Shown piece by piece: positions 36,043 through 41,865 of a stretch of 64,000 nucleotides of DNA. The position numbers and the translations under genes are program-made. A model generated the notes under the pieces. That model had not been told where the DNA came from. It was given only the letters and a program-made list of their open reading frames with translations, and ran no database searches. The DNA comes from Pararhizobium gei (GTDB taxonomy: Bacteria; Pseudomonadota; Alphaproteobacteria; Rhizobiales; Rhizobiaceae): NCBI RefSeq assembly GCF_029223885.1, contig NZ_CP119409.1, forward strand, positions 1,142,001-1,206,000. Reading direction: 5' to 3'. Within the stretch, counting starts at the first letter, position 1. Each line of letters starts with the position of its first letter.

Positions 36043-37464
36043 TTAACGTCTTTCCTTTTTCTTGCGCCAGGGCGCATTCTTTTGCCAATCGCCAGCCATG
36101 ATGCTCCCGTAGGGGATCACCTCGTCGACGACTTCTGCAAGGCCGTAATGTTCGATCTGGGACCGGACATTGGCAGCGTTCTTGTATGCGCTCGGCAGTT
36201 CCGAAATATCGGGGATGCCAAAGAAGAAGCGGGCGTCGAGACCCGATGTCTCCCTCTCCATCACGGCCGCGATGTTGTTCGGGCTCAGACCCCGGCTATC
36301 GGCCCCGAATTCCTCGCCGAGCCGACGCATATGCGCCGTCCGCGAGAAATTGCGCCCCGCGCCATGCGGCGAGAAGCCGAGGCCGTGGGCGGCGTCCGAG
36401 CCGCGCACGATCAGGATCGGCTCCGCCATGTTGAGCGGGATGATCGTCAGATCGGTCGAATCTTCAGCCCATTTGTCGAAGGCCGGTGTTGCACCCTTGC
36501 CATGGTAGAACAGGCCATCGGACTTGCGGAAGACGAAGTTGTGCTCGTTCCAGAACCGGTCGCTCACCTTCGCCGCCAGCTTTTCCGCCGTCATGTCATG
36601 GATGGCGTAGTGGTTTTCCTTCGTCCACCGGCGGATTGTCTGCAGCGCCGACCAGTACATGTCTCCTTCTTCGCTGTCGGCCGGAATCCAGGCATTCTCC
36701 CGGTGCGTTTCGGGCGAAAGCTGTTCGCGGAATTTGTTGGCGATCTTCATGCCTCGATCATAGAGCCGCGCACCGGGGGCACGCGATCCGTGATGGGTGA
36801 CGAGCGCCGTCTCTCCGGTCGATTTCATCTGCCCGACATAGGCAAAATGATTGCCGTCGCCCTGCGTGGCGAAATGCTCGATACCGACATGCAGGATCTC
36901 CTTCAGCAAAGGGTTTGCCTGGAACGCCGAGAGTGTCTCCTCCGAAGGCTTGATCTGCGCGCCGCGCGGGCGTCCGCCGGGACCGAAATGCGTGACGGCA
37001 TGCACGGCATCGAGCAAGGCCTTGGGCTCCACGCCCGGAAAGATCGAGATCGCCATCGAGCAGCAGATATCGGCCGAATGCATGCCGGGATGGATCGCTT
37101 CCGACGCCACCACGCCACCGACCGGGATCGTGCCGACCGGTCCGGACGGGCAGGCATCGGGCATGATGGCGGCTGCGCGGACGACAGGCGTGCGGGCAAG
37201 CTCGCGCATCGTCGCGCTCACCTTTTCGATGTTGTCCTGTTCGAAGGCATCTTCGGCACGGATATTAATGTGGATGAGCACGTCATTCGGCGCCTTGAGC
37301 GGCAGGGTCGGCCCCGGCTGATAGCCGCGGGCGACCGCCAGCGCGGCAGCCATGGAACCGCCATTTCCCAGCACTTGGTTCGCTGCTACCAACGCATCGC
37401 GAAACCACTTGCCCTGGCCCATGCCGGCATCGATCAAATCCTGTCCGCTCATTACCTCTGTCAT
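36043..37464 (-). CDS. rtcB: RtcB family RNA ligase
   Basis: A 473-residue RtcB-type ligase, which joins RNA 2',3'-cyclic phosphate or 3'-phosphate ends to 5'-OH ends with GTP and manganese. Recognisable family motifs are DICC (residues 132-135, place of the metal cysteine), GDGNH (202-206), THHGSR (223-228), YHGKGATPA (320-328) and SPHGAGRNFSR (365-375), whose histidine 367 corresponds to the guanylylated one. Several motifs differ from E. coli RtcB, so this is a divergent subgroup. I chose ATG 37464; the frame stays open to 37560, but that part overlaps the last tRNA-like unit. Last gene of the rsr-array-rtcB operon; no rtcA or archease gene is nearby. Confidence 0.92.
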   Translation of the reverse strand: MTEVMSGQDLIDAGMGQGKWFRDALVAANQVLGNGGSMAAALAVARGYQPGPTLPLKAPNDVLIHINIRAEDAFEQDNIEKVSATMRELARTPVVRAAAIMPDACPSGPVGTIPVGGVVASEAIHPGMHSADICCSMAISIFPGVEPKALLDAVHAVTHFGPGGRPRGAQIKPSEETLSAFQANPLLKEILHVGIEHFATQGDGNHFAYVGQMKSTGETALVTHHGSRAPGARLYDRGMKIANKFREQLSPETHRENAWIPADSEEGDMYWSALQTIRRWTKENHYAIHDMTAEKLAAKVSDRFWNEHNFVFRKSDGLFYHGKGATPAFDKWAEDSTDLTIIPLNMAEPILIVRGSDAAHGLGFSPHGAGRNFSRTAHMRRLGEEFGADSRGLSPNNIAAVMERETSGLDARFFFGIPDISELPSAYKNAANVRSQIEHYGLAEVVDEVIPYGSIMAGDWQKNAPWRKKKERR

Positions 37465-37534
37465 TGTCTTTTCTGCGTTTGCAGTCCTTCTGGTTCCGTT
37501 TCGTTTCGTCACACCACCCGGGCGACGAGCGTTG

Positions 37535-37601
37535 GCCGGGGAATAATTCACCGCTCGCATTCCATCACCGATGGCGCTAAGTGGCCCCTGTAGTCACCGG
37601 C
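37535..37601 (-). ncRNA. Degenerate last unit G
   Basis: It keeps the unit start GCCGGTGACTACAGG and a matching CCGGC at 37539-37535, followed by a CTCGTCGCC-like spacer element at about 37530-37522. It has no T arm. It may be a decayed unit or the array's 3' border in front of rtcB. Confidence 0.4.
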
Positions 37602-37644
37602 GGCATTCGCCCAGGGTCTTCTTCGTCATCCCGGCGACGAGTTT

Positions 37645-37753
37645 GGCAGGACCGTTGTGATGAGCTACGCATTGCCTTGTGCAACCGGGATGATTCGAAC
37701 ATCCGACCTTCCCGCCGCAAAGCGACGGGCTGCTCTTTCCGTGTAGTCCTGCC
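37645..37753 (-). ncRNA. tRNA-like unit F, opened in the D loop
   Basis: 109 bases closed by the same GGCAGGAC/GTCCTGCC stem as unit E. D-stem halves GAGC (near the 5' end) and GCTC (near the 3' end) are split. The anticodon position is an 8-pair helix CCCGTCGC/GCGGCGGG with a TTT loop, so no anticodon can be read. The T arm is GGATG-TTCGAAT-CATCC. The acceptor CGGTTGC pairs with GCAATGCG with one bulge and a short ACAAG loop. Confidence 0.7.
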
Positions 37754-37800
37754 TGGCATTCGCCGGGTATTCCATTCATTCAAGCCCCCGCAACAAGGGT

Positions 37801-37910
37801 GGCAGGACAGTATTATCTGAGCTACGCGCTCCCTTCGGGAACGCGGGATGATTTGAACATCCGACACACCGGCTGGAAACCCGGCCGGCTGCTCTACCTG
37901 TAGTCCTGCC
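37801..37910 (-). ncRNA. tRNA-like unit E, opened in the D loop
   Basis: 110 bases closed by GGCAGGAC/GTCCTGCC. Next come TACAG, the second half of a D arm (GTAGAGC), a closed anticodon-like arm (GCCGGC/GCCGGT, 10-base loop), T arm GGATG-TTCAAAT-CATCC and a 9-pair acceptor helix CGCGTTCCC/GGGAGCGCG capped by just GAA with no CCA. TA and the first half of the D arm (GCTC) follow. The D-stem halves GCTC and GAGC lie at opposite ends, so the break is in the D loop. Confidence 0.7.
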
Positions 37911-37954
37911 GGCATTTGCCGGGGATAGTCCTTTGCAGCGGCGACGAGGGTGGA

Positions 37955-38045
37955 CGAAACCGGATGGTCCCGCTCGTGCCAGAGAGCGTGTGCCAAGGAG
38001 GAGTCGAACCTGCCAGACCATCCAACGGTGGATGCTGTAGTTCCG
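37955..38045 (-). ncRNA. tRNA-like unit D, opened in the anticodon arm
   Basis: 91 bases. Outer stem CGGAAC/GTTTCG, inner anticodon-type stem GGATGGTC/GACCATCC (8 pairs), T arm with loop TTCGACT and a contiguous D arm GCTC-TCTGGCAC-GAGC. The acceptor 3' strand TTGGCAC is present but its 5' partner is missing, so the acceptor stem has been lost. An alternative hairpin CATCC/GGATG lies beside the inner stem. Confidence 0.6.
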
Positions 38046-38083
38046 CCCGGCATTCGCCGCTGCAATTCTTTCGACAACCAATT

Positions 38084-38181
38084 AACCGGAAACTTTCCAC
38101 CGTTCCTCCAAGACGAGGTGACGACGGAGCAGGCTTCGAACCCACAACTCCATTTGCGGAGCACCAGTATCGTTTCCGGCC
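38084..38181 (-). ncRNA. tRNA-like unit C with long variable arm
   Basis: 98 bases closed by a 10-pair stem, GGCCGGAAAC with GTTTCCGGTT (two G-T pairs). It has an extra hairpin CTCC-GCAAAT-GGAG (38161-38148) just before the T arm, as in class II tRNAs (Leu, Ser, Tyr), and a T arm GTGGG-TTCGAAG-CCTGC. The D arm and acceptor strands after the linker are hard to pair. It seems to derive from a different tRNA than unit A. Confidence 0.6.
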
Positions 38182-38212
38182 TTTTGCCTCTGTCATGGCG
38201 ACCAGTGTTCAA

Positions 38213-38286
38213 GGAAACTCCGCTACCAGAATGGGAGCGTGACTTCCCTTGCAGGGTTTGAACCCGCCGCGGCCGATGTAGTTTCC
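38213..38286 (-). ncRNA. tRNA-like unit B, shortened
   Basis: 74 bases closed by GGAAACT/AGTTTCC. The T arm is intact (GCGGG-TTCAAAC-CCTGC). The acceptor is imperfect (AAGGGAA against TCCCATT) around a GTCA end remnant and a short linker. The D arm is reduced to a GGTAG-type remnant. The smallest unit of the array. Confidence 0.6.
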
Positions 38287-38329
38287 TTTGCATTCGCCAT
38301 GTCATGCGTCCGTGACAACGAGGTGTGGA

Positions 38330-38426
38330 GAAACGTCCTGCTCTATCCGCTGAGCTACGGGGCCACAAAATGGAGGCCCCGGCGGGATTTGAACCCGCGA
38401 CCTGGAGGGTAACAGCCTGTAGTTTC
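38330..38426 (-). ncRNA. tRNA-like unit A, opened in the anticodon arm, with CCA
   Basis: 97 bases. Order on the RNA: GAAAC (38426-38422), TACAG, a T arm with 5-base stem GCGGG/CCCGC and loop TTCAAAT, acceptor 3' strand CGGGGCC, T, CCA, six-base linker TTTTGT, acceptor 5' strand GGCCCCG (all 7 pairs), TA, D arm GCTC-AGCGGATA-GAGC, then GTTTC (38334-38330) pairing with the start. It is a complete tRNA cut in the anticodon arm and joined across the acceptor ends. It is the first unit after rsr. Confidence 0.75.
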
Positions 38427-38485
38427 ATCCGGCATTCGTCACGGTCCCGCGCCGTTCACGGCGGCGTGGGTTTATTGCTTTTACG

Positions 38486-40042
38486 TCACAGCTCGATCGA
38501 CTCGATGGTTTTCACCCAGCCGTCCGCTCTGTTCGAGTTGGCCGCAAACGCCGTGATCACCCCATAGACGGCATCCGAGAAACCGCCGATGTTAAGCACG
38601 TCGTCCCGCGTCGGCGCCTGTGTGGTGGCATGGGGCTGGATATCAAGGCAGACCAGCTTTGCAGCCGGATTGACCCGCTTGATCCTTGCCCATTCCATCA
38701 TCACAGCCGTCGGCTGACCACTCTTGCCCGCATCCATCCAGGACTGGTTGTCCGAGATGAACACGACGAGATCGACCTTCGCCTTCTCGTTTGCGAGTTT
38801 CCTCAGCGGAGCGGAGCAGTTCGTTCCGCCGCCGCCGACTGCCGCCAGCTTGGCAGCATTGGTCATCACCGAATCCCGCCGGTTGAGCTTGACGTTCACC
38901 ACGTCGTTCTCGAACGGCAGCACCCGCGCCTTCGGGTTGCGCTGCAGGAACGCCGCGGTCATCAGACCAGCGACATCGATGCAGCGGACCGCGGATGTCG
39001 CCCCCTTGCGGTAACCAGTTACCGGCGAACCCATGGAGCCGGAAACGTCCGGGCAGAGCACCACATTGCCGGCAAGCGACGGCACATTGGCGATCGCGAC
39101 ATCCATGGCGTCCTGCAGTGCATCGCGCACGACATCCGGAACCTGGCCATCGACCATCTTCCACGCCATCATCAGTTGATAGGGAAAGACCTTGGCCTTG
39201 CGGACCTCGTCCGGATCGGCCAGTCGCGCAGCCAGCGCCTCGGCGAACCCTTCAACCTCGAACACGCCATTGCGTGCAAAGGTGTTGAGGTTCTGCCGCA
39301 CCATCTGCCAGCCGCCCTTTTCGGCGATTTCGACCCAATGCTCCCGCGTCAGCGGCAGCGAGGTCAGCATCTGGAACGGCACGTCCGGCATAGTAGCCGT
39401 CTGGTCGCGCCGAAAGGCTTCCAGCGCCTTGATGAGGTCCGGCAGGGCCGCGTAGTCGTGCGGCTTGCCGATCGCCCAGGCATAGAGCGCCCTGCGTTCT
39501 TCCGACGCCGGCTTCGGGTGCACCATGCGGATCACATCGGCAAGCGACGGGTCGTTGCCGACCATCGCGCGCAGGATCTGTTCCGTGCTTGCCCGCTCGA
39601 GCCACGCCTGCACCAGCTTCTTCGGTCGCGTGCCGAGCGACTTGCGTCCTGTGGCACCCGACCGCATCACTTGGACGAAGCCGCGCAGCATCTTGCCGCT
39701 CTTGACCACGCGGGGAAACGCGCCGGCAAAGGCGTGGCTCTGAAGACCGGACAGCATGGCCAGCAGGGTGACCGGCATGTCCTTCATGTGGCCCTTCTCT
39801 GCAGCATAGACCGCCACCTTGGCCAGGAACTCCGGTTCGACCTGAAGCGCAAGCACCTTGACCGCCTCCAGTTGACCGGCACCATCCGCATAGAAGGTTC
39901 CGTTGAACATGCCGGTCACGGCATACTGCGCCAACGCTTCACGCGGCGTCAGCGTGTAAGCCGGCGCAGCTTCGTGGTTTTTCGTGTCCGTGCCCGAAAG
40001 CAGTTTTCCGAGGTAGGTTTTGAAGATCGCCTTGTTGACCAT
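38486..40042 (-). CDS. rsr: Ro60/Rsr family TROVE-vWA RNA-binding protein
   Basis: A 518-residue Ro60 orthologue. Residues about 15-320 are the TROVE domain, a ring of helical repeats that binds Y RNA on its outside and single-stranded ends of misfolded RNA in its hole. Residues about 325-510 are a von Willebrand A fold with an intact metal site: DVSGS (332-336), GGTN and SDNQSW. ATG 40042 is preferred because AGAGGT lies seven bases upstream and the sigma54 promoter would start RNA near 40067; an ATG at 40066 would have almost no leader. Heads the operon with the tRNA-like array and rtcB. Confidence 0.93.
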   Translation of the reverse strand: MVNKAIFKTYLGKLLSGTDTKNHEAAPAYTLTPREALAQYAVTGMFNGTFYADGAGQLEAVKVLALQVEPEFLAKVAVYAAEKGHMKDMPVTLLAMLSGLQSHAFAGAFPRVVKSGKMLRGFVQVMRSGATGRKSLGTRPKKLVQAWLERASTEQILRAMVGNDPSLADVIRMVHPKPASEERRALYAWAIGKPHDYAALPDLIKALEAFRRDQTATMPDVPFQMLTSLPLTREHWVEIAEKGGWQMVRQNLNTFARNGVFEVEGFAEALAARLADPDEVRKAKVFPYQLMMAWKMVDGQVPDVVRDALQDAMDVAIANVPSLAGNVVLCPDVSGSMGSPVTGYRKGATSAVRCIDVAGLMTAAFLQRNPKARVLPFENDVVNVKLNRRDSVMTNAAKLAAVGGGGTNCSAPLRKLANEKAKVDLVVFISDNQSWMDAGKSGQPTAVMMEWARIKRVNPAAKLVCLDIQPHATTQAPTRDDVLNIGGFSDAVYGVITAFAANSNRADGWVKTIESIEL

Positions 40043-40077
40043 GACAGCACCTCTTGGTTGGTTCATGCCAGATACAT

Positions 40078-40093
40078 TTCAAGACGCGTGCCA
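40078..40093 (-). promoter_or_regulatory. Sigma54 promoter of the rsr-array-rtcB operon
   Basis: On the minus strand TGGCACG (40093-40087), four bases, TTGAA (40082-40078). This is a near-perfect sigma54 element (TGGCACG-N4-TTGCW) about 25 bases ahead of the expected start of transcription and 36 bases ahead of the rsr ATG. RtcR, encoded divergently, is a sigma54 activator. Confidence 0.9.
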
Positions 40094-40251: not shown

Positions 40252-41865
40252 ATGAAGCGGCGTGTTGCCATCAGCATATTGGGAACCACCCTCGACATGG
40301 GAAAATGGGACAATCGCTGGAGCCGCTGGCGGCCGAATGTCGGGCTGTGCCAGCAGGCCGGCTTGTTCATCGACCGATTGGAACTCATCCATGACAATCA
40401 TGCGAGCGCACTCGCCAACCGGATCATTGCAGACATAGCGACCGTGTCGCCGGCAACGCAGGTGCGCAGCAATGTCATCAATTTCCGCGACCCGTGGGAT
40501 TTTTCCGAGGTTTATACGAACCTTCGCGATTTTGCCCGCATCTACCCGTTCGACCCCGATACGGAGGATTATCTTGTCAACATCACCACCGGCACGCATG
40601 TGGCGCAGATCTGCTGGTTCCTGTTAACGGAAGCCCGCATCATTCCCGGCCAGTTGCTGCAGCTTTCGCCGCCGCGCGACCGGGAGCCGGACCAGGATTT
40701 TGCCGGCACGCACCGGATCATCGACCTTGATCTCTCTCGCTACGACGAGATTGCAAAACGCTTTGCCTCCGAGCGTGCGGACGCCGCTTCATTCCTGAAA
40801 TCCGGCATTTCGACCCGCAATGCCGAATTCAACCGAATGATCGACGAGATCGAACGGGTGGTCATTCGCTCGAAAGCGCCCGTGCTCCTGACCGGTCCAA
40901 CGGGTGCCGGCAAGTCGCAGCTCGCGCGCAAAATCTATGAACTCAAGAAAAGCCAGCGCAAGGTCAGCGGCCCCTTCATCGAGGTCAACTGCGCGACGCT
41001 GCGCGGCGACCAGGCCATGTCCACTTTGTTCGGCCACGTGAAGGGCGCGTTCACAGGCGCAGCAGGCGAGCGTTCCGGACTGCTCAAATCCGCCGACAAG
41101 GGCGTGCTGTTCCTTGACGAGATCGGCGAACTCGGCCTCGACGAACAGGCCATGTGCCTGCGCGCGATCGAGGAGAAACGCTTCCTTCCCGTCGGCGCCG
41201 ACCGGGAAGTATCCGCCGACTTCCAGCTGTTGGCCGGCACCAATCGCGATCTCGGCGAAGATGTGCGCAAGGGCAAATTCCGCGAAGATCTTTATGCCCG
41301 CCTGAATCTCTGGACCTTCCAACTGCCGGGCCTGCGCGAGCGCAAGGAGGATATCGAGCCCAATCTCGACTTCGAGCTGAAACGCTTTCTGGAGCGGGAA
41401 GGTGAGAATGTTACCTTCAACAAGGAAGCGCGCCAACGCTACCTTGCATTCGCAACCGGACCACAAGCTGTCTGGAGCGCCAATTTCCGGGATCTCTCGG
41501 CTTCTGTGACCCGCATGGCCACGCTCGCCCCTTCTGGACGGATCACGACGGACGTTGTCGATGACGAAGTTCGGCGGCTCAATAGCTTTTGGCACGCCTC
41601 GTCTGGCAGTCACCCATCGGACGTTCTGGTTGAGGAAATATTGGGCGTTGAAGCCACCACGCGACTGGACCGCTTCGATGTCGCGCAACTGCACGACGTC
41701 ATCCGAACCTGCCGGGAGCACACAACCGCAAGCGCTGCCGGCCGGGCCCTCTTTGCTGTCTCGCGACTGGACAAGAAAAGCAGCAATGATGCCGACCGTC
41801 TGACGAAATACCTCGCGCGTTTCGATCTGAAGTTCGATGATGTCAGGAAGCGAACCAGCCCTTGA
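40252..41865 (+). CDS. rtcR: RNA-repair transcription activator RtcR
   Basis: A 537-residue sigma54 activator. Residues 1-180 are the RtcR-type CARF sensor domain (Rossmann-like; NITTGTHVAQ at 110-119 is the ligand-loop motif), thought to bind RNA fragments with 2',3'-cyclic phosphate ends. Residues about 190-430 are the AAA+ domain with Walker A GPTGAGKS (215-222), the sigma54-contacting GAFTGA (265-270) and Walker B VLFLDE (285-290). A C-terminal DNA-binding part follows (TASAAGRALFAVSRLDKKSS). It diverges from the operon it should control. Confidence 0.95.
   Translation: MKRRVAISILGTTLDMGKWDNRWSRWRPNVGLCQQAGLFIDRLELIHDNHASALANRIIADIATVSPATQVRSNVINFRDPWDFSEVYTNLRDFARIYPFDPDTEDYLVNITTGTHVAQICWFLLTEARIIPGQLLQLSPPRDREPDQDFAGTHRIIDLDLSRYDEIAKRFASERADAASFLKSGISTRNAEFNRMIDEIERVVIRSKAPVLLTGPTGAGKSQLARKIYELKKSQRKVSGPFIEVNCATLRGDQAMSTLFGHVKGAFTGAAGERSGLLKSADKGVLFLDEIGELGLDEQAMCLRAIEEKRFLPVGADREVSADFQLLAGTNRDLGEDVRKGKFREDLYARLNLWTFQLPGLRERKEDIEPNLDFELKRFLEREGENVTFNKEARQRYLAFATGPQAVWSANFRDLSASVTRMATLAPSGRITTDVVDDEVRRLNSFWHASSGSHPSDVLVEEILGVEATTRLDRFDVAQLHDVIRTCREHTTASAAGRALFAVSRLDKKSSNDADRLTKYLARFDLKFDDVRKRTSP

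Follow-up and report, generated by a model that had tools for sequence, protein, structure and literature searches.

The window analysed here is a stretch of 64,000 nucleotides from Pararhizobium gei (RefSeq assembly GCF_029223885.1, contig NZ_CP119409.1, positions 1,142,001 to 1,206,000). On its minus strand, Ro60 (rsr) is followed by an interval of about 1 kb and then by the RNA ligase gene rtcB, and all seven RNA units described below (A to G) lie in tandem in this interval, on the operon strand:

40252..41865, plus strand: rtcR, sigma-54 activator with an RtcR sensor domain, divergent (Pfam PF06956, E 1.2e-78; PF00158, E 9e-51)
40078..40093, minus strand: sigma-54 type -24/-12 promoter sequence, TGGCACGCGTCTTGAA, 28 nt before the Ro60 ORF, with 11 of 12 consensus positions
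38486..40066, minus strand: Ro60 (rsr), 526 aa (Pfam vWA_Ro60 PF25045, E 3.5e-19; TROVE PF05731, E 2.4e-5)
38310..38444, minus strand: unit A, Y RNA of the canonical YrlA type, corresponding to a tRNA whose opening lies in the anticodon loop, with a CCA remnant in the acceptor linker
38194..38301, minus strand: unit B, reduced YrlA-type unit with T arm, 4-bp acceptor remnant and D-loop remnant (from Rfam and direct reading)
38080..38191, minus strand: unit C, T arm, capped acceptor and a variable arm of class II; lacks a D arm and has a decayed basal Ro60 motif
37933..38065, minus strand: unit D, outer stem enclosing a T arm and a D arm; acceptor absent
37787..37922, minus strand: unit E, D-loop-opened tRNA mimic (fold and covariation; 131 bits with model R1, of which unit E is a member)
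37630..37767, minus strand: unit F, D-loop-opened tRNA mimic (fold and covariation; 113.8 bits with model R1, of which unit F is a member)
37517..37615, minus strand: unit G, conserved hairpin head on a Y stem, without tRNA features
36043..37464, minus strand: rtcB RNA ligase (Pfam RtcB PF01139, E 1.1e-28)

The start of rtcB was set by eye at MTEVMSGQDL; the mechanical ORF start, at 37560, falls inside unit G. Divergent rtcR and a sigma-54-type promoter before Ro60 are the arrangement of an RtcR-controlled RNA repair operon, and the locus is accordingly predicted from its sequence to be one. Promoters were assigned by consensus; of 67 loci (66 named records and the window), 59 have a site matching at least 10 of the 12 positions in the 200 nt preceding Ro60, compared with 0 of 67 shuffled regions (one shuffle per region). 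Between the Ro60 stop codon and unit A, a strong hairpin of 11 pairs (window 38446-38470) carries a T tail that makes it terminator-like on the plus strand only. A 283-codon ORF runs across the array (window 37577-38428). It is probably a by-product of the tRNA-like sequence, since in seven relatives stop-free runs extend to 102-249 aa at most.

Six of the units were found mechanically and unit C by eye. The first-pass annotation had placed an array of tRNA-like units between Ro60 and RtcB on the operon strand; this was borne out, with seven units and a span that now reads 37517-38444. Six of the seven follow a single plan: a stem strand ending in GA or AA, the letters ATGC, a second stem ending in CTACA, the head, the partner of the second stem, and a closing strand like CUCGUCGCC. 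These six thereby carry the basal stem of Y RNAs with its conserved internal-loop motif, so that the proposed pairing of the RNA ends in a new stem holds for them; in unit C the motif has decayed, while the second stem and the head are kept. Intact T arms in units A to F, a full acceptor with CCA in unit A and a class II variable arm in unit C were all seen as first described. The earlier count of six tRNA-like units and one degenerate unit was right in that six carry tRNA parts, but the last unit, G, has an intact Y stem and a conserved hairpin, and it is C that has the decayed motif. Like bacterial Y RNAs, the array units are encoded next to Ro60.

The same architecture is widespread among relatives. 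With a stem-motif-stem finder, 87 of 98 loci yielded 377 operon-strand units, 335 of them distinct, whereas the opposite strand of these loci (993,748 bases) yielded 10. The array units are therefore beyond chance, although a few of the 377 are chance hits; one of these falls within the Ro60 gene of L054. Of the 11 loci that yielded no unit, nine are stored in the opposite orientation and hold 3 to 7 units each; the others are L037, which is cut at a contig end, and L150, a chance locus. Trimming failed for two of the first 260 units. At least three units lay inside the interval after Ro60 in 60 of the 67 loci (270 units in total; 62 loci if units outside the interval are also counted), and unit number per interval ranged from 1 to 7, with none in one locus that is cut short. 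Arrays are therefore not peculiar to this genome. A family search gave 25 Ro60 loci, 10 of them the same records as the window or named loci; among the 15 that repeat no named record, 12 had at least three units. Head order is constant in the Rhizobiaceae loci read, with A first, D in the middle, E/F late and G last, and 36 "minimal" units among the relatives consist of the stem with no tRNA head. In a Bacteroidota assembly (L047:7649-10918) the Y RNA units fall into two groups, one of them lying about 2 kb downstream of the other.

Compensatory changes in homologous loci, which had been named beforehand as a check, were found for units A, D and E/F at a level that no column shuffle reached. 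Together with the common stem, they uphold the earlier proposal of an expanded Y RNA family in an rsr-rtcB operon. That the seven units form such an array is a statement to which we give far more confidence than to the functional account developed below.

None of the units behaves as an ordinary tRNA gene, that is, a linear tRNA with anticodon loop and acceptor end. ARAGORN called no tRNA in the window and none among 204 linear unit cores; when the cores were doubled it called 63 of 204, compared with 0 of 4080 shuffled cores. With a profile of the genome's own tRNAs, 157 of 204 doubled and 151 of 204 linear cores scored above the shuffle maximum of 4.6 bits, a measure that is informative for unit A and weak for units D, E and F. 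Rfam at a permissive threshold identified units A and B in the window as YrlA, with weak Plastid-ycf2 and tmRNA matches besides. No unit of the window reached the YrlA gathering cut-off of 69 bits (A 58.2, B 34.2, D 18.6), and units C, E, F and G had no match at E <= 1, D matching only at E 0.64. The search with YrlA and tRNA models that the first-pass annotation had called for thus recovered A and B, below the cut-off, and left C, E, F and G unmatched. Some units of relatives lie at or above the cut-off (L045, 81.6 bits; L051, 74.8 and 69 bits; L053, 70.6 bits).

Unit A belongs to the YrlA type. Its own-tRNA profile score was 33.2 bits for the doubled core, versus 21.7 for the linear core and the shuffle maximum of 4.6, and ARAGORN calls the doubled core a tRNA. 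The nearest tRNA of the genome is Asn (56 of 66 aligned bases); the unit begins with CTGTTA, like the Asn anticodon loop, and has a full 7-bp acceptor followed by TCCA. As judged from the sequence, the tRNA-like domain of unit A is permuted with its opening in the anticodon region, as is characteristic of YrlA. In an alignment of 32 A-type sequences, taken from 43 units with similar rows omitted, 99.2% of pair cells were standard and double changes occurred at 14 of 30 pairs.

Units E and F are built differently. After CTACA come G18G19-like letters, the D-stem strand GAGC, a long anticodon-like hairpin, a variable loop and the T arm; then follow a short-loop-capped acceptor, which has no CCA, and, in GTAGCTCA, the partner strand of the D stem. 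The D-stem 3' strand and the anticodon-like arm thus precede the T arm, which corrects the earlier view that all units share one permutation. The order then described (T arm, acceptor 3' strand, acceptor 5' strand, D part) does apply to A, E and F, while B is reduced, C lacks the D arm and D lacks the acceptor. In an alignment of all 37 D-loop-opened units picked by pattern, one row of which is 7 bases longer, 93.0% of cells were paired and double changes occurred at 23 of 42 pairs; none of 500 shuffles reached any of five measures, and partners that were slid paired at 34-57%. RNAalifold, unaided, gave the same topology. The D stem is nearly invariant within this set. Across D-stem types, in 28 units hand-picked for diversity from 77 pattern candidates, the 12-23 pair was U-A in 18 and G-C in 10, with no exception; the loop-adjacent D-stem pair was a non-standard A-G in seven, six of these Leu-like, and for this set shuffles matched two of the five measures (27/500 and 10/500). 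Because of the fold, the covariation and the swap of the 12-23 pair in the D stem, units E and F are opened in the D loop, unlike YrlA, which is opened in the anticodon region.

The D-loop-opened heads bear less resemblance to individual tRNAs. Unit E is nearest to tRNA Phe of the same genome (48/59) and unit F to Arg(acg) (55/67), both weak matches; with Asn for unit A, the heads resemble more than one tRNA, in line with the idea of several tRNA ancestors. Their profile scores were 6.7 and 5.7 bits against the shuffle maximum of 4.6, doubling the core added 0.7 and 0 bits, and among the 37 alignment members 14 scored above the shuffle maximum and ARAGORN called none when doubled. Because profile and ARAGORN support is poor and sequence identity weak, the tRNA character of these heads depends on their fold and on the letters of the D and T arms. 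Of 62 distinct D-loop-opened heads that were folded, 48 formed three hairpins and 14 did not do so on their own; the 62 include at least one wrong pick (L059). In the 48 three-hairpin heads the anticodon-like loop had 4 nt in 29, 6 in six, 3 in five, 5 in four and 8 in four, and in none did it have 7; two further heads, L042 and its twin L067, fold differently but allow a reading with a 7-nt loop. The T loop had 7 nt in 42 of the 48 and the acceptor cap 3-6 nt in 46. GG preceded the D strand in all 48, and some of the selecting patterns themselves contain GG. By a rough pattern, NCCA followed the acceptor strand in 58 of 117 anticodon-opened versus 6 of 65 D-loop-opened units.

Head types D, C and G were aligned as well. 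An alignment of 26 D-type sequences, from 38 units (37 listed and L066) with similar rows omitted, was 98.2% paired with double changes at 8 of 34 pairs. Double changes were found at 10 of 34 predicted pairs in nine C-type sequences (9 of 10 units; the L036 match lies elsewhere) and at 7 of 27 predicted pairs in 17 G-type sequences (17 of 19 units, similar rows omitted). In unit C of the window the Ro60 stem is without its ATGC motif, and across nine loci the head of this unit keeps its structure; perhaps, to go by its sequence, unit C no longer binds Ro60.

D-loop-opened heads were read in Rhizobiaceae, Emcibacter, Afifella, Roseibium, Taklimakanibacter, Aestuariivirga, Uliginosibacterium (Beta) and Methylomonas (Gamma), and also in one Bacteroidota and one Acidobacteria metagenome assembly, there outside the stretch just after Ro60. 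Their D stems are of three types, GAGC/GCTC, GCGC/GCGC and Leu-like, the last with a variable arm. By pattern, such a head occurs in 42 of the 67 loci, with identical heads counted once and the wrong L059 among them, and in 39 by a stricter pattern. In its own genome the E/F model R1 recovered E and F, followed by A and D and, with a weak score, G; these matches all belong to the array, and a single weak match (E 0.2) fell outside it. Among 394 genomes of the family, strong R1 matches (E < 1e-15) occurred in 20 and Ro60 in 25, with both in 19 (Fisher p 3e-26, relatedness ignored); nine of the 20 contain sequences used in the model, and Ro60 was present in 10 of the other 11. Six of the 25 Ro60 genomes had no strong R1 match. 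One genome (G108) has kept rtcB and five units while Ro60 and the start of the first unit are missing, so the array can persist without Ro60. At the place of the missing part (L147:6880-13594) lie genes matching MzaE and MzaC of the PADLOC anti-phage library.

Across 398 genomes of the phylum, R1 gave 15 matches at E <= 1e-4, four within the family and 11 outside it (G425, 1.0e-16; G405, 6.8e-10; the rest 7e-7 to 5e-5). The weak ones outside the family are uninformative on the D-loop type because canonical unit A scores close to them, at 4.3e-6. In the family search, weak matches in two genomes without Ro60 (G186 and G214) are probably due to chance, and 7 kb around the G214 match contained no unit and no Ro60 or RtcB match. 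An apparent array away from Ro60 in G279 was discarded, as array and Ro60 both lie at contig ends.

The locus resembles the enteric rsr-yrlBA-rtcBA operon and its YrlA RNA (RF02553) in having Ro60 and rtcB in one operon with divergent rtcR and a sigma-54-type promoter, in the basal stem with AUGC and CUUGUCGCC-type strands, and in the permuted T-acceptor-D head of unit A. It differs in having seven units instead of two, in that A and B score under the Rfam cut-off, and in the heads of the others: E and F are opened in the D loop and fall outside YrlA as defined by an opening in the anticodon region, D is without an acceptor, and C is class II without a D arm. YrlB is not known to have a tRNA domain. 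Unit G and the 36 minimal units resemble it and other Y RNAs without a tRNA domain in having the stem and no tRNA head, although unit G, unlike YrlB, carries a conserved hairpin head of its own. From the Ro60, Y RNA and PNPase machine (RYPER) of D. radiodurans, docking of the stem to Ro60 and of the head to a partner would be expected by analogy; the present array differs by its linkage to RtcR and rtcB. Like circularly permuted tRNA genes, the units have the 3' part before the 5' part, but the anticodon loop and CCA end are mostly lost and the ends pair in a stem of the Ro60-docking type.

Chen and co-workers reportedly identified probable Y RNAs beside Ro60 in over 250 species in 2014, each species having at least one with a tRNA-like domain, so several units per locus are probably known in part. 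The literature within reach of our search, which stopped short of the primary Y RNA papers, contained no Ro60-rtcB array of this size and no D-loop-opened Y RNA. Permuted YrlA is thus already known; for the second opening point and for such arrays we did not find a description there.

Sequence and comparison directly support the array, the common stem, the promoter sequence, the two permutations and the compensatory changes. On this basis we propose, with a probability of roughly 0.55 for the account as a whole, that the units are Ro60-stem Y RNAs with varied tRNA-elbow heads, made together upon tRNA cleavage and acting as adaptors. By analogy, tRNA cleavage would produce RNA ends with 2',3'-cyclic phosphate that RtcR would sense, switching on the sigma-54 promoter, from which all units would be transcribed together; a response of RtcR to cyclic-phosphate RNA ends is described in PMC9879122. 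The units would dock on Ro60 through their common basal stem, as in the Salmonella rsr-yrlBA-rtcBA system and the D. radiodurans Ro60/Y RNA/PNPase machine. In YrlA, Rsr is bound by the basal stem, and the tRNA-like domain serves as a binding site for PNPase and as a substrate for DusA and TruB (PMC8394870). Tethering of PNPase or another protein by the Y RNA head is reported for D. radiodurans and Salmonella in PMC4726728, PMC8394870 and PMC9879122, and superposition of a bacterial Y RNA on tRNA with circular permutation in PMC11472068.

Heads A, D, E and F have the T loop and the D-loop GG in common, and their anticodon loop and CCA end are removed or capped, which points to the elbow as the recognised part and therefore favours elbow-binding partners over anticodon nucleases. 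The heads may thus offer a tRNA elbow to tRNA-binding proteins (PNPase, TruB, DusA or other elbow binders), each unit being an exchangeable adaptor through which a tRNA-handling protein would reach the Ro60 ring; having several types of head could widen the range of partners or substrates. More tentatively, and as something we would sooner doubt than assert, bacterial Y RNAs might form a modular kit in which different kinds of tRNA opened at the anticodon or D loop, with sealed ends, were repeatedly grafted onto one Ro60-docking stem, giving an RtcR-induced panel of uncuttable elbows and making Ro60 a multi-client hub for tRNA damage. This panel of heads makes the purpose of the tRNA-like part of bacterial Y RNAs directly testable: its members vary in opening point, in probable ancestor and in size, while A, D, E and F retain the elbow, and so they separate the candidate recognition elements, namely anticodon, CCA end and elbow. 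In any case, tRNA mimicry on a Ro60-type stem exists in at least two permutation formats and across several bacterial groups.

The operon logic would be identical if the heads were decoys, binding anticodon nucleases and keeping them occupied when tRNAs are damaged, a role that the authors of PMC7790460 suggest for Salmonella YrlA, and several tRNA-like heads would suit several nucleases. The anticodon-opened heads, however, have no closed anticodon loop, and the three-hairpin heads have loops of 3-6 or 8 nt and never 7, L042 and L067 being the two other heads readable with 7. Since a 7-nt loop is missing from most heads with a retained anticodon-like arm, the decoy role is weakened, and we regard it as unlikely. 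A role as substrates or regulators of RtcB, whereby units are cut in stress and religated, or titrate the ligase and hence RtcR, would fit the position of rtcB directly next in the operon, the retention of array and rtcB without Ro60 in G108, and the binding of RtcA and RtcB to the RtcR sensor domain reported in PMC9650030. Yet the heads, being continuous hairpins, offer no ends for joining without prior cutting, six of the seven units retain the Ro60-type stem, and YrlA fragments went undetected in Salmonella (PMC7790460); this role seems quite improbable.

It is likewise unlikely that the units are simply a YrlA family of duplicated, drifting copies with no separate function per head: unit A is YrlA, units of L045, L051 and L053 reach the Rfam cut-off and unit number varies from 1 to 7, but the distinct heads are each under compensatory change in many species and their order is constant in the Rhizobiaceae loci read. 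Circularly permuted tRNA genes do exist (PMC3978253), and linear tRNA genes sit within some arrays. That the units are permuted or decayed tRNA genes processed into working tRNAs is nonetheless very hard to credit, given that no tRNA was called in the window and that the D-loop-opened heads have short anticodon-like loops, capped acceptors and mostly no CCA. The adaptor account remains our preferred reading.

Two further observations concern ordinary tRNA genes. Of 21 Ro60 loci scanned with ARAGORN, six have linear tRNA genes interspersed with or adjacent to the Y RNA units:

L045:7823-7897: linear tRNA Asn
L049:8036-8113: linear tRNA Pro
L050:8032-8109: linear tRNA Pro
L054:7788-7965: two linear tRNAs Leu
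L065:7788-7964: two linear tRNAs Leu
L053:2727-5086: eleven or more linear tRNAs, Acidobacteria assembly, upstream of Ro60

These may be spares made upon tRNA damage, or raw material for new heads. Elsewhere, an Rfam YrlA match (L003, G000:C1:1939998-1940148, E 8e-4) spans two tandem tRNA genes (1939971-1940168) that score equally; it consists of the 3' part of one, the spacer and the 5' part of the other, and such a tandem pair shows how a permuted head could arise.
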